A stretch of DNA of 32,975 nucleotides, taken from the NCBI GenBank assembly GCA_021768625.1, contig JAETUM010000029.1:1-32975 (forward strand). Reading direction: 5' to 3'. Position 1 is the first letter of the stretch, and each line of letters begins with the position of its first letter. The stretch comes from Candidatus Stoquefichus sp. (GTDB taxonomy: Bacteria; Bacillota_I; Bacilli_A; Erysipelotrichales; Coprobacillaceae). Both the position numbers and the translations under genes were made by a program. The notes under the pieces are model-generated. The model did not search any database. It was not told the DNA's origin and saw only the letters and a program-made list of their open reading frames with translations. Below are positions 13,398-19,957 of this stretch, piece after piece.

Positions 13398-13421
13398 CCA
13401 TAAATGAAAGGAGTTAAAAGT

Positions 13422-14600
13422 ATGGAAAAGAGAACCGACAATAAAGGAAGAATATTAAGAAACGGAGAGAGCCAAAGAAAAGACGGTAGATATGCTTACA
13501 AATATATAGAAAACGGTAAACCTAAATTTGTCTATTCCTGGAAACTGGTATCTACTGATAGAGTACCAAAAGGAAAAAGAGATTGTGTTTCACTTCGTGA
13601 AAAAGTCAAAATGATAGAAAAAGATTTATCTGACGGTATTAGTACCTCAAACAGAAACATGACAGTATCACAGCTATATGACCGTTATACAAGAAGCAAG
13701 GCAAATGTTAGAAAAGGTACACAGACTGGCAGAAAATACCTTAAAGAAGCCTTGCAAACAGATATTCTGGGGAATATGAGCATTGATAAGGTAAAACTAT
13801 CAGAAGCCAAAGCATGGGCATATAGAATGAGAGAAAAATATGCTTACAGTACAGTAAAGAATATGAAAAGAAGCCTGAATGCTACCTTTCATCTTGCGAT
13901 ACAGGACGATTTGCTTAGAAAAAATCCTTTTGATTTTGCTTTGACGGATGTTATTGAAAATGACACCAAAAAGAAAGAAGCACTGACAAAGGAAGAGATA
14001 AAAGCACTTCTTGATTTTGCAAAAACAGATAAAACCTATAAAGTCTATTATCCTGCAATCGTTATTTTATTAAATACAGGTTTGCGTATCTCTGAATTAT
14101 GCGGATTGACGCTTTCTGACATTGATTTTGATAATCGCACAATTGATATTAACCACCAATTGAAAAAGGATAAAGACGGATACTATACAGAACCACCGAA
14201 AAGTGTCAGCGGTTATCGCAAGATACCTATGACAGACTTGGTATTTCAAACTTTGCTGGAAGTTATAAAAAATAGAAAAAATACACAGCCTATTGTTGTT
14301 GACGGTTATAGCGATTTCCTCTTTTTGAACAGGCAGGGATTACCTATGTATAACGCATACTATTCATGTAGATTTTCAGCACTTTCAAAAAAGTATCGTA
14401 AATATACAGGAAAAGAACTTCCTAATATCACACCGCATATTTTAAGACATACTTTTTGTACGAACATGGCAAACAAAGGAATGACGCCAAATAATCTACA
14501 GTATGTTATGGGGCATAAGAATATTACTATGACACTAGGATATTATGCACATGGAAGCTATCAATCAGCACAAGCCGAAATGAAACGATTGACTGCATAA
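13422..14600 (+). CDS. int: Tyrosine recombinase (Tn916-type integrase)
   Basis: The integrase cuts and rejoins the element ends with the chromosome. Counting from the ATG at 13422 (392 residues), the catalytic residues are Arg 222 (TGLRISEL), His 339 and Arg 342 (HILRHTF), His 365 (GHKN) and the nucleophile Tyr 374 (TLGYYAH), a complete set. The N-terminal 75 residues form the Tn916-type arm-binding domain (KGRILRNGESQRKDGRYAYKY) and residues 80-165 the SAM-like core-binding domain. AGGAG at 13409-13413 is 8 bases before this ATG; an ATG at 13404 overlaps that site and is rejected. Direct repeats that could be arm sites begin right at the stop codon. Confidence 0.95.
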   Translation: MEKRTDNKGRILRNGESQRKDGRYAYKYIENGKPKFVYSWKLVSTDRVPKGKRDCVSLREKVKMIEKDLSDGISTSNRNMTVSQLYDRYTRSKANVRKGTQTGRKYLKEALQTDILGNMSIDKVKLSEAKAWAYRMREKYAYSTVKNMKRSLNATFHLAIQDDLLRKNPFDFALTDVIENDTKKKEALTKEEIKALLDFAKTDKTYKVYYPAIVILLNTGLRISELCGLTLSDIDFDNRTIDINHQLKKDKDGYYTEPPKSVSGYRKIPMTDLVFQTLLEVIKNRKNTQPIVVDGYSDFLFLNRQGLPMYNAYYSCRFSALSKKYRKYTGKELPNITPHILRHTFCTNMANKGMTPNNLQYVMGHKNITMTLGYYAHGSYQSAQAEMKRLTA

Positions 14601-15935: not shown

Positions 15936-15951
15936 GTTAGCTATTACTAAC
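15936..15951. promoter_or_regulatory. Metal-regulator box, copy 1 (GTTAG-N6-CTAAC)
   Basis: A perfect 5+5 inverted repeat with a 6-base spacer at the predicted start of the feo transcript. The TTAG...CTAA half-sites resemble those of DtxR/IdeR-family operators. Confidence 0.6.
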
Positions 15952-15969
15952 TATTATTTTTGACAGAAG

Positions 15970-15985
15970 GTTAGCTTTGGCTAAT
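15970..15985. promoter_or_regulatory. Metal-regulator box, copy 2 (one mismatch)
   Basis: GTTAG, CTTTGG, CTAAT: the same pattern as copy 1 with the last base changed. It lies 34 bases after copy 1, in the leader before feoA. Confidence 0.5.
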
Positions 15986-16014
15986 TTAAGATTGAGAAAA
16001 GGGGAGGAAATATG

Positions 16015-16224
16015 ATGCCATTATTACTAGCAAATATTGATGAAGAAAACATTATTCAAAGAGTTGGAGGATCAATAGAAACAAAACATCATTTAGAGAA
16101 CCTAGGCTTTGTGCCAGGAAGTTCTATTCGTATTGTTAATAAGTCTAATGGTAATATTATTGTCAATATTAAAGACACAAGAATTGCCATTTCTCAAGAA
16201 TTAGCAAAAAAGATTATTGTGTAG
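16015..16224 (+). CDS. feoA: FeoA-family protein (first, divergent copy)
   Basis: This 69-residue protein has the SH3-like FeoA fold pattern: a short lead-in, HLENLGFVPGSSIRIVNKSNGNIIVNIKDTRIAISQELAKKI-type strands and a final helix. FeoA proteins are small cytoplasmic partners of the FeoB iron channel and may adjust its GTPase cycle. It lacks the typical KxAPLGDP loop of the second copy, so it is a divergent member. Two ATGs occur at 16012 and 16015; GGGGAGG at 16001-16007 is 7 bases before the second and only 4 before the first, so 16015 is preferred. It is followed by the second feoA after 13 bases. Confidence 0.85.
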   Translation: MPLLLANIDEENIIQRVGGSIETKHHLENLGFVPGSSIRIVNKSNGNIIVNIKDTRIAISQELAKKIIV

Positions 16225-16237
16225 GAAGGGATTATAG

Positions 16238-16456
16238 ATGACATTAAAAGAAGTAAAAATTGGTGATACTGTAACTGTAAAAAAACTAACAGGCCAAGGT
16301 GCTACAAAACGTAGAATTATGGATATGGGTATTACGAAAGGTGTAGAAATCTATGTTAGAAAAGTCGCACCTCTTGGAGATCCAGTAGAAGTGACTGTAA
16401 GAGGATATGAATTATCATTAAGAAAAGCAGATGCTGCTATGATTGAAGTAGAATAG
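16238..16456 (+). CDS. feoA: FeoA-family ferrous iron transport protein (second copy)
   Basis: A 72-residue canonical FeoA: TVKKLTGQGATKRRIMDMGIT, then KVAPLGDPVEVTVRGYELSLRKADA, the family hallmark strands of its SH3-like barrel. It should bind or assist FeoB at the inner face of the membrane. Two tandem feoA genes before feoB occur in several anaerobic Bacillota. The copy directly before feoB is the more conserved one and probably the main FeoB partner. A third regulatory box lies between its stop codon and the feoB ribosome site. Confidence 0.92.
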   Translation: MTLKEVKIGDTVTVKKLTGQGATKRRIMDMGITKGVEIYVRKVAPLGDPVEVTVRGYELSLRKADAAMIEVE

Positions 16457-16475
16457 AATTTAATTTTATCAAAGA

Positions 16476-16491
16476 GTTAGCAAAGACTAAC
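16476..16491. promoter_or_regulatory. Metal-regulator box, copy 3, between feoA and feoB
   Basis: GTTAG-CAAAGA-CTAAC sits just before the feoB ribosome site (AAGGAGG at about 16493-16500). No strong promoter is visible right upstream, so it may act as a road-block, as an internal promoter site, or in the mRNA as a small hairpin next to the ribosome site. Confidence 0.55.
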
Positions 16492-16505
16492 ATAAGGAGG
16501 TTAAT

Positions 16506-18662
16506 ATGAGTTTAAGTGTTGCATTAGCTGGTAATCCAAATAGTGGAAAAACAACATTATTTAATGCTTTAACTGGAGCAAATCAATTTGTTGGAAACTG
16601 GCCAGGAGTTACAGTAGAAAAGAAAGAGGGAAAATATAAAGGGGATAGAGAAATTAAAATAACAGACTTACCTGGAATTTATTCATTATCACCTTATACA
16701 TTAGAAGAAGTTGTAGCTAGAGAATTTTTGTTGAATGAAAAAGTAGATGTTATTTTAAATATTATAGATGGTTCTAATTTGGAGCGTAATCTTTATTTAA
16801 CGACACAATTGTTAGAGTTAGGTATTCCAGTTGTTATTGCTGTGAATATGTTAGATGTTATTGAAAAACGTGGAGATGTTATTGATTATAATCACTTATC
16901 TCAAGAGTTAGGATGTCCAGTATTACCTATTTCTGCATTAAAGAATAAAGGTATTCAAGAAGTTATGGATAAGATTAAGGAAGTTGCATATCAACCATTT
17001 ACATCAAAAAATATCTATAGTGAAGATATAAATGAAGTACTAAGTTATTTAAGAAGTTTATTGATTGATAAAATAGATGTTTCAAAATCATTGTTTTATA
17101 GCATAAAATTGCTAGAAAGAGATGATAAAATCTTATCTGCATTAAATATTGATATGGATGAGACAAAGATAGTAACATTAGAAAAGAAATATGATGATGA
17201 TAGTGAAAGTATAGTTACAGATGCTAGATATTCATATATCACAAATATTATAGGATCTTGTTATAAAAAAGGAAGTACAGAGAAACTATCAGTATCTGAT
17301 AAAATTGATAGAATTGTGACAAATCGTATCTTAGCATTACCAATATTTGCTTTCGTTATGTGGTTAGTTTATTATTTATCAGTGAACACAGTAGGAAGTG
17401 CTGCAACTGATTTTGTTAATGATAATATATTTAGTGATGGTTTTGAATTATTTGGATCATTTATTCCAAGTATACCAGAGTTGGTCACTAATGTTTTAGA
17501 AGCTATTGGATGTGCTGCATGGTTACAAGGACTTATTGTTGATGGAATTGTAGCAGGTGTAGGAGCAGTTTTAGGATTTGTTCCTCAAATGTTAGTTTTA
17601 TTCTTATTATTAGCTATTTTAGAAGATTGTGGTTATATGGCACGTATTGCCTTCATTATGGATAGAATTTTTAGAAAATTTGGTCTTTCAGGAAAATCAT
17701 TTATTCCAATGTTAATTGGAACAGGATGTGGTGTACCAGGTGTTATGGCAAGCCGTACAATAGAAAGCGATAGAGATCGTAAAATGACTATTATGACAAC
17801 TACATTTATACCATGTAGTGCAAAATTACCTATTATTGCTTTAATTGCTGGTGCTTTATTTAATGAAGCATCATGGATTGCACCAAGCGCTTATTTCTTA
17901 GGTGTAGGAGCTATTATTATTTCAGGTATCATTTTAAAGAAAACAAAAATGTTTATGGGAGATCCAGCTCCATTTGTTATGGAAATGCCTGCATACCATC
18001 TTCCACGTGTTATGAATGTATTAAGAAGTATGTGGGAAAGAGGTTGGTCTTTCATTAAAAAAGCAGGAACAATTATCTTACTTTCTACAATTGTTATTTG
18101 GTTCTTACAATCATTTGGTTTTGAAAATGGAAGTTTAGCAATGGTAGAAGATATGAATAATAGTTTCTTGGCAATGATTGGACAAACATTTGCATGGATT
18201 TTTACTCCATTAGGATGGGGAGATTGGAAAGCAGCAGTAGCTTCTATTACAGGATTAGTAGCTAAAGAAAATGTTGTTGCAACATTTGGACAACTTTATG
18301 GATTTGCTGAAGTCGCAGAAGATGGTGCAGAAATTTGGGGAACATTGGCAGCAAGCTTCACTGTGTTATCAGCATATTCATTCCTAGCATTTAATTTATT
18401 ATGTGCTCCATGCTTCGCTGCTATTGGTGCTATTAAAAGAGAAATGAATAACAAAAAATGGACAATCTTTGCAATAGCATATCAATGTGTATTTGCATAT
18501 ATTATTGCATTAATCATATATCAAATTGGAAATCTTGTATTAAATGGTATATTTGGTATTGGAACAATTGTCGCTATTGTTTTATTGATTGGTATGATAT
18601 ACTTATTAGTAAGACCAGCTAAGAAAGCAGATAAGTTAGAAGTGGAATTTTCAGTAAAATAG
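16506..18662 (+). CDS. feoB: Ferrous iron transporter FeoB
   Basis: FeoB imports Fe(II) under low-oxygen conditions. The N-terminal G domain has G1 GNPNSGKT (9-16), the switch threonine in WPGVTVE (36), G3 DLPG (54-57), G4 NMLD (114-117) and the G5 SALK loop (143-146). A helical spacer follows to about residue 270, then the membrane part with two Gate regions: one with GFVPQMLVLFLLLAILEDCGYMAR-type sequence and the metal-contacting Cys in GTGCGVPG. At 718 residues it is the usual length for the class without a fused FeoA or FeoC domain. AAGGAGG lies about 5 bases before the ATG. It is the third gene of the operon, and a Cys-rich partner follows 17 bases later. Confidence 0.96.
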   Translation: MSLSVALAGNPNSGKTTLFNALTGANQFVGNWPGVTVEKKEGKYKGDREIKITDLPGIYSLSPYTLEEVVAREFLLNEKVDVILNIIDGSNLERNLYLTTQLLELGIPVVIAVNMLDVIEKRGDVIDYNHLSQELGCPVLPISALKNKGIQEVMDKIKEVAYQPFTSKNIYSEDINEVLSYLRSLLIDKIDVSKSLFYSIKLLERDDKILSALNIDMDETKIVTLEKKYDDDSESIVTDARYSYITNIIGSCYKKGSTEKLSVSDKIDRIVTNRILALPIFAFVMWLVYYLSVNTVGSAATDFVNDNIFSDGFELFGSFIPSIPELVTNVLEAIGCAAWLQGLIVDGIVAGVGAVLGFVPQMLVLFLLLAILEDCGYMARIAFIMDRIFRKFGLSGKSFIPMLIGTGCGVPGVMASRTIESDRDRKMTIMTTTFIPCSAKLPIIALIAGALFNEASWIAPSAYFLGVGAIIISGIILKKTKMFMGDPAPFVMEMPAYHLPRVMNVLRSMWERGWSFIKKAGTIILLSTIVIWFLQSFGFENGSLAMVEDMNNSFLAMIGQTFAWIFTPLGWGDWKAAVASITGLVAKENVVATFGQLYGFAEVAEDGAEIWGTLAASFTVLSAYSFLAFNLLCAPCFAAIGAIKREMNNKKWTIFAIAYQCVFAYIIALIIYQIGNLVLNGIFGIGTIVAIVLLIGMIYLLVRPAKKADKLEVEFSVK

Positions 18663-18679
18663 AAAGGAAAGATGACATA

Positions 18680-18871
18680 ATGAATTTATCAACATTAATT
18701 GTATTATTGATTGTTATTGGAATTGTAGGATTAGCTATGAGAACAATCATTAATGATAAAAAAAGTGGTAAGTCTTCATGTGGTGGAGATTGTGGTGGTT
18801 GTGGAAATCCATTGTGTCATAGTTCAAAAACAATAATTGAAGATTATAAAAGAGGAGAACTTCATAAATAG
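18680..18871 (+). CDS. FeoB-associated Cys-rich membrane protein
   Basis: This 63-residue protein has one transmembrane helix (about 4-22) and a soluble tail with four Cys at 34, 38, 41 and 46 in a Gly-rich loop (SCGGDCGGCGNPLCHS). That matches the small family commonly found after feoB in Bacillota, where it may replace FeoC. The Cys cluster could hold iron or an iron-sulfur centre; the role is not established. Its gene closes the feo operon, and the terminator hairpin begins inside the last codons. Confidence 0.88.
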   Translation: MNLSTLIVLLIVIGIVGLAMRTIINDKKSGKSSCGGDCGGCGNPLCHSSKTIIEDYKRGELHK

Positions 18872-18884
18872 TTCTTCTTTTTTA
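18850..18884 (+). terminator. Terminator of the feo operon
   Basis: AGAACT (before 18862) pairs with AGTTCT (18870-18875), extended by wobble pairs, and the stem is followed by a T-rich run. The left arm lies in the end of the Cys-rich protein gene. Confidence 0.6.
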
Positions 18885-18893
18885 TTATATATC

Positions 18894-18922
18894 TTGACAA
18901 ATCATGTAAAAAATATTAAACT
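18894..18922 (+). promoter_or_regulatory. Promoter of the candidate iron-regulated small RNA
   Basis: TTGACA (18894-18899) is followed after 17 bases by TAAACT (18917-18922). The distance from the -35 to the regulator box (36 bases) is close to that in front of feoA (38 bases). The -10 is weak. Confidence 0.45.
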
Positions 18923-18929
18923 GTATATA

Positions 18930-18945
18930 GTTAGCAAAGACTAAC
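18930..18945. promoter_or_regulatory. Metal-regulator box, copy 4
   Basis: GTTAG-CAAAGA-CTAAC is identical to copy 3, including the spacer. It lies outside any gene at the predicted start of a non-coding transcript. Confidence 0.6.
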
Positions 18946-19077
18946 TTTATAGATAGCTTATCATAAATATTGTTACTCTCAACTCCTATTCATCGTCATT
19001 ATAAATACAAAACCAGATAAAGACAAAACATCGAGCAATAATTAACAAGATATCTATGACGGACATAATGTAAAAAA

Positions 19078-19117
19078 GAAGCTGAACAAATTATTCCTTT
19101 TGTTCAGTTTCTTTTTA
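19078..19117 (+). terminator. Strong terminator in the feo-DeoR gap
   Basis: GAAGCTGAACAAA (19078-19090) pairs with TTTGTTCAGTTTC (19099-19111) over 13 bp with one wobble, followed by TTTTTAT. There is no gene just upstream on this strand. Confidence 0.85.
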
Positions 19118-19204: not shown

Positions 19205-19957
19205 ATGAAAATGTCAGAAAGACACACAAAGATATTAGATTTACTAACAAAGGAAGAAAAAATAGAAGTTGCAAAATTATCAAATATTTTTAGGGTTTCA
19301 CAAGTTACTATTCGTAAAGACCTTGATCAATTAGAAAATAAAGGACTTATTATGAGAGAACATGGATTTGCGACATTAAATTCTAAAGACGATATCAATA
19401 ATAGATTAGCATATAACTATGATATTAAACAAAAGATTGCACAACTAGCAAGTGAAGATGTACACGATGGAGAAACTCTTATGATAGAATCTGGGTCATG
19501 TTGTGCTCTATTAGCTTTACAGATAGCTCAAACAAAAAAAGATATCACAATTATTACAAATTCAGCTTTCATTGCTGATTATGTAAGAAAGATTCCACAA
19601 ACAAAGATTATTCTTTTAGGTGGCGAATATCAAAATGAGTCACAAGTTTCAGTAGGACCAATTGTAAAAAAATGTGTAGAGACATTTTATGTTGATAAAT
19701 TTTTTATTGGAACTGATGGTTTTTCTGAAGTTTCTGGTTTCACTGGAAATGATTATATGCGTAGTGAAACAGTAAGAGATATGGCAAAGCAAGCAAAACA
19801 AGTTATCGTTGTTACAGATTCTAGTAAATTTAATCAAATAGGTGTTGTTAATCTGTTGCCAACTCAAAATATTACAAGTGTTGTGACTGATAATAATATT
19901 CCTAATTGTTGTGAAAGTTATTTAATTGAACAAGGTATTACTGTTAAGAAAATATAA
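19205..19957 (+). CDS. DeoR-family transcriptional regulator
   Basis: At 250 residues it has the standard DeoR layout: an N-terminal helix-turn-helix (IEVAKLSNIFRVSQVTIRKDLDQLENKGLI, about 20-50) and a sugar-phosphate-binding DeoRC domain with DGETLMIESGSC near 91, TIITNS near 119, LLGGEY near 139 and FIGTDGFS near 170. These proteins usually repress a catabolic gene until a phosphorylated sugar or related effector binds. GGGTGAT is 6 bases before the ATG. It converges on the activase gene and neighbours the glycyl radical enzyme, so that enzyme is its likely target; near-identical GAATGAAA boxes around that promoter fit a DeoR-type site. Confidence 0.9.
   Translation: MKMSERHTKILDLLTKEEKIEVAKLSNIFRVSQVTIRKDLDQLENKGLIMREHGFATLNSKDDINNRLAYNYDIKQKIAQLASEDVHDGETLMIESGSCCALLALQIAQTKKDITIITNSAFIADYVRKIPQTKIILLGGEYQNESQVSVGPIVKKCVETFYVDKFFIGTDGFSEVSGFTGNDYMRSETVRDMAKQAKQVIVVTDSSKFNQIGVVNLLPTQNITSVVTDNNIPNCCESYLIEQGITVKKI

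Follow-up and report, generated by a model that had tools for sequence, protein, structure and literature searches.

A putative feo-regulon small RNA in Candidatus Stoquefichus and its relatives, derived from a FeoB-associated gene and predicted to target rubrerythrin mRNAs

Many bacteria make iron-sparing RNAs (RyhB, FsrA) under the same regulator as their iron uptake genes. We propose that positions 18929-19117 of a 32 975-nucleotide contig from Candidatus Stoquefichus sp. (the window) encode a trans-acting, iron-repressed small RNA of the feo regulon that would block Shine-Dalgarno sequences and spare iron by way of rubrerythrins; we give this reading a probability of about 0.7. With iron plentiful, a metal-sensing repressor would sit on a GTTAG-N6-CTAAC box and stop transcription of the RNA. 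With iron short the RNA would be made, and its open loop (ACUCCUAUUCAUC) would pair with the extended Shine-Dalgarno sequences of messages that encode iron-rich proteins, chiefly rubrerythrins, blocking their translation as an iron-sparing response. Iron control, repressor action, transcription and repression by the RNA are what we infer from the DNA sequence. The features are as follows, with the strand where one applies.

15936-15985, two operator boxes before feoA, one exact and one with a single mismatch (palindrome search)
16012-18662, plus strand, feoA, feoA and feoB (gene annotation)
16476-16491, operator box before feoB, identical to GTTAGCAAAGACTAAC
18680-18871, plus strand, annotated element 3' of feoB (gene annotation and neighbourhood comparison)
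18894-18922, plus strand, putative sigma-70-type promoter of the small RNA, TTGACA-N17-TAAACT (sequence scan; counterparts in eight other genomes)
18929-19117, plus strand, predicted small RNA of about 189 nt (start placed from the promoter)
18930-18945, operator box GTTAGCAAAGACTAAC at the RNA start site, also the first hairpin of the RNA (same as the box before feoB)
18947-18974, plus strand, predicted 5' arms of the display stem, helices 18947-18955 and 18968-18974 (fold prediction, arm comparison)
18975-19000, plus strand, predicted open loop with the conserved antisense core ACTCCTATTCATCGTCATT at 18982-19000, a relic of transmembrane-helix codons of a FeoB-associated protein gene (fold and alignment)
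19034-19059, plus strand, predicted 3' arms of the display stem, 19034-19040 and 19051-19059 (fold prediction, arm comparison)
19073-19116, plus strand, intrinsic terminator, 18 pairs and a T-run (terminator scan)
19205-19957, plus strand, DeoR-family regulator gene, found beside the RNA in all related genomes but G021

The order in the window is feoA-feoA-feoB, the FeoB-associated Cys-rich gene, a terminator at 18846-18885 that closes the feo operon, and then the RNA unit. A Tn916-type integrase gene at 13404-14600, shortly upstream of the feo operon, suggests an adjoining integrated element. The preliminary description of this stretch had noted a TTGACA, a 17-base spacer and a weak -10, and these are present (-35 at 18894-18899, -10 TAAACT at 18917-18922). 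A simple promoter scan finds 47 promoter-like sites in the region versus 46.7 in shuffles, so the match by itself proves nothing; upstream of the RNA in eight other genomes there is a matching TTGACA (TTGGCA in one) with TATACT, TATTCT or TATTAT. The terminator with its T-run was likewise found again, and we judge it to be real, with six terminator-like sites observed versus 1.7 expected. The roughly 130 bases described as having no usable frame indeed hold no gene: between the feo operon and the DeoR gene there is no ORF of at least 60 aa, and the short frames of the interval share no conserved start codon across the homologues. The RNA folds better than 200 of 200 shuffles (z = -4.8). On these grounds the interval is predicted to be a separate transcription unit, with its own promoter, Feo-type operator and intrinsic terminator, between the feo operon and the DeoR gene. 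The comparative data below bear out the proposed new RNA of about 190 bases as a conserved structured RNA under the feo operator, whose transcription we infer.

The operator links the RNA to the iron-uptake genes. The box at the RNA start is identical to that before feoB, as the preliminary description had claimed, and similar to those before feoA; the spacing from -35 to box is also nearly the same, at 36 nt for the RNA and 38 nt for feoA. The window contains three exact and two one-mismatch GTTAG-N6-CTAAC palindromes versus 0.73 expected, and no shuffle reached five. In the whole genome there are just four exact copies, not above the six of a reversed-pattern control, so it is the positions of the boxes that are telling: every one lies at Feo-type genes. 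The fourth precedes a second FeoB-associated/HMA-type gene (L004, positions 1124-1486, G000:C28), a further member of the regulon. We take the box to be unlike the Fur consensus, and a literature search on its regulator motif found nothing.

The preliminary description suggested a covariance search of related genomes, and comparison by sequence shows that the unit recurs in other genera. The CTCCT stretch gave BLASTN matches among 40 related genomes, and a sequence-only model of this stretch located the unit in G016, G040, G041 and G042 (genus g17), G006, G022 and G048 (g7), and G005 and G021 (g6). With the window's own genome (G000, g1), this makes 10 genomes in four genera of one family, the G021 copy being diverged; the same model applied to 316 genomes of the order outside this family yielded a single marginal match. 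The usual order is FeoB-associated gene(s), RNA, DeoR; in G041 the RNA and DeoR lie together apart from feo, and in G021 the RNA adjoins feo without DeoR. A promoter and one or two boxes accompany every copy but that of G021. The G021 homologue (L035), with no visible promoter or box, sits at the end of the feo operon and may derive from a 3' UTR; the changes in its core (C to U, A to G) preserve pairing with the antisense pattern through G-U pairs. The DeoR gene of G040 (L030, G040:C1:927080-927550) matches only residues 14-170 and has an internal stop, and may be broken.

The 19-nt core ACUCCUAUUCAUCGUCAUU is identical in 7 of the 10 genomes (G000, G016, G040, G042, G006, G022, G048); of the other three, G005 differs by one change and G021 by three, and G041 carries a deletion in the 3' half. 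In the adjacent DeoR gene, fourfold sites share only 32-57% identity from genus to genus and are saturated, so a core that stays unchanged over such a distance is under selection. In Rfam, its families of iron-responsive RNAs included, neither the window nor eight homologous loci gave a match at the gathering score, and the sub-threshold matches were weak and centred on the terminator hairpin. We conclude from these comparisons that this is a conserved predicted RNA family without an Rfam match.

The core is predicted to be displayed in an open loop closed by a covarying helix. In predicted folds, the mean unpaired probability of the core loop over 13 nt is 0.77-0.89 in 9 of the 10 homologues (0.48 in G041), and the closing helix ends exactly 8 nt 5' of CTCC in eight of them. 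RNAalifold on plain MAFFT alignments gave no result because the 3' arms misalign, and we therefore compared the arms by duplex energy and in a hand-anchored alignment. Paired with their own partners, the arms average -21.1 kcal/mol, versus -11.0 with partners taken from other genera, and out of 120 permutations the cognate set comes first. The weakest pairing is that of the window's arm (-14.5), which has a slight preference for the partner from G005. In the hand-anchored alignment, whose 32 columns were fitted to the helix and are hence biased in its favour, all 48 cells of the inner helix are standard pairs, and three of the eight pairs have changed on both sides.

The RNA arose from a FeoB-associated gene (PF12669). 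Weaker matches to the model fall inside the intact FeoB-associated genes of G018 and G013. Read in the ancestral frame, the core gives IVALILLFIVI and then SQIKSRHT, matching STIIVAVILLIIVIMIIKHQIQTRHTC of G018, and several RNA copies share their terminator with the G018 gene; together these indicate that the RNA is a decayed FeoB-associated gene. The lesions of the frame vary with the genus: the window has a deletion of 1 nt, g7, G042 and G005 have stops that differ, and G041 has an insertion. An open PF12669 frame with its Cys motif is lacking, the frame being broken in the window and nearly all relatives; the best one left, 35 codons still open from a TTG in G040, matches nothing in Pfam.

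A possible objection is that nothing else remains here: the gene has decayed, its promoter and terminator are left over, and the locus has no function today. The core clearly does descend from a FeoB-associated gene, and the frame lesions vary between genera, as such decay would have it. Yet the core is unchanged where neutral sites of the same age are saturated, the stem covaries, and nine of the 10 copies retain operator and promoter; we consider a functionless relic very improbable. A decayed gene with no conserved structure had been named beforehand as the finding that would count against the RNA; the decay proved correct, and the lack of structure did not, since structure and core are kept. 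The locus is thus a decayed gene and, at the same time, a structured RNA.

Nor do we expect, at slightly longer odds still, that the product is a short peptide translated today, for example from the ancestral frame or from the +1 frame that reads PHTPIHRH. The 35-codon frame of G040 and the ATG starts found in some frame of G016, G022 and G040 would allow it, but the homologues share no start codon, which several of them lack altogether, and the conserved stretch is itself interrupted by 1-nt indels; indels of 1-2 nt together with differing stops exclude a conserved peptide.

In a tree of the DeoR protein, a single gene with modest support, G018 and G011, which have intact genes, nest among RNA-bearing genomes, suggesting that the frame was lost more than once while the RNA core was kept. 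We suggest tentatively, at somewhat below even odds, that the ancestral FeoB-associated mRNA was bifunctional, serving as both peptide message and antisense RNA, and that the peptide frame died independently in several genera with the RNA part kept, so that a protein gene of iron uptake would have become an iron-sparing regulator of rubrerythrins. In G013 an intact FeoB-associated gene (L034) keeps nearly the entire RNA core (TATACTCCTATTCATCATC) and is a candidate bifunctional mRNA. The literature searched offered no clear precedent for small RNAs born from dead genes, which is not proof of absence.

In genomes that carry the RNA, rubrerythrin-family genes have extended ribosome-binding sites (GATGAATAGGAGG type) to which the core is antisense. 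The reverse complement of the core, G-U pairs permitted (GRTGRRTRGGRG), is present 38 times in the 10 RNA-bearing genomes (nine of these being the RNA itself) versus eight for the reversed pattern; 12 genomes lacking the RNA have 12 occurrences. Those at ribosome-binding sites number 18 in the RNA-bearing genomes versus four in the 12 others; among the 18 are rubrerythrin (G022, G048), reverse rubrerythrin (G042), glyoxalases (G040, G042) and a putative iron-sulfur aldo-keto reductase (G042, named by eye). Leaders of reverse rubrerythrin carry TGAATAGGAGG throughout g17 and AATAGGAGG in the genome of the window; in other genomes most have a plain site of the AAGGAGG or GGAGG type. Rubredoxin-type rubrerythrin leaders carry GATGAATAAGGAGG or similar in g17 and GATGAATTAGGAGG in G006. 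In g7 we found no reverse rubrerythrin; the antisense site lies instead on the classical and rubredoxin-type rubrerythrins. Classical rubrerythrin was rejected as a universal target, its leader complementarity being merely ordinary outside g7.

Over 94 rubrerythrin-family leaders, the mean core-leader duplex energy is -13.3 kcal/mol in RNA-bearing genomes versus -9.46 where no RNA was found, and this holds even with G043 counted as lacking the RNA; P is about 1e-5 with species as non-independent data points, and 0.009 with one value per genus. In 300 trials with the flanks shuffled and CUCCU kept, no core reached a difference of that size, G043 here being counted as RNA-bearing. That genome has target-like leaders though neither RNA nor DeoR gene was found in its 87% complete assembly. 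The effect stems from g7 and g17, with g1 (the window) and g6 near background. In the window's genome the best rubrerythrin leader, AATAGGAG, is weak (8 bp, about -11 kcal/mol), and the sites examined, including one-mismatch antisense sites, yielded no strong iron-protein target; an rpoC site there at -27.7 kcal/mol is probably chance. Thus an exposed C-rich seed antisense to iron-protein translation starts is predicted in g7 and g17, where the evidence for targets is strong; in the window's own genome that evidence is weak. The proposal that the CTCCT stretch could mask ribosome sites gains from this, mainly through the relatives, as the stretch is predicted to lie in an open loop and is complementary to iron-protein ribosome-binding sites. 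The seed, suggested around 18975-19000, lies nearer 18975-18995.

The two g6 genomes have antisense sites at the ribosome-binding sites of livF (L211, L115) and galactose mutarotase (L114, L213), not iron proteins. These sites in G005 and G021, and the want of a strong rubrerythrin site in the window's genome, would suit a conserved small RNA of the feo regulon that acts mainly on mRNAs other than those of rubrerythrins (in g6, for example, those of transport or sugar genes) and whose role is not iron sparing. We hold this to be unlikely, though less so than a functionless relic or a peptide, given the enrichment of the rubrerythrin family in two genera and on three different paralogues.

The iron-sparing RNA proposed here best compares with FsrA or IsrR in function, probably without common descent. 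IsrR of Staphylococcus is iron-repressed and acts on mRNAs of iron proteins through C-rich single-stranded regions, of which two lie in hairpin loops (PMC9410917). Both are Gram-positive small RNAs with C-rich single-stranded regions and operator boxes at the promoter, iron repression being predicted here. They differ in having no synteny, in Fur boxes versus GTTAG-N6-CTAAC, in targets (nitrate respiration enzymes for IsrR, rubrerythrins predicted here), and in the gene-relic origin of our RNA and its want of an Rfam match to any known family. The predicted mode, a C-rich stretch against the Shine-Dalgarno sequence, is that of FsrA of Bacillus subtilis; Fur control and the FbpABC helpers are features of FsrA, and here too Rfam gave no match. 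RyhB and PrrF of Proteobacteria share the proposed iron-sparing logic but are Hfq-dependent, belong to a different phylum and find no Rfam counterpart here. The Feo-associated Cys-rich protein genes (PF12669; PMC8749426) are the parent of the core and share its place at the operon end, whereas the RNA has lost the reading frame and has its own operator as a separate gene.

In the literature searched, no iron-sparing RNA turned up in Erysipelotrichales, a common gut order. The origin of the RNA bears on an open question, whether translation of the small ORFs associated with FeoB yields functional peptides (PMC8749426). Since the parent gene is intact in two other genomes of the family, the change from gene to RNA and the matching change of target sites can be traced and tested. 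The RNA family has a readable ancestry, from protein gene to regulatory RNA, with a matching change in the ribosome-binding sites of its predicted targets.
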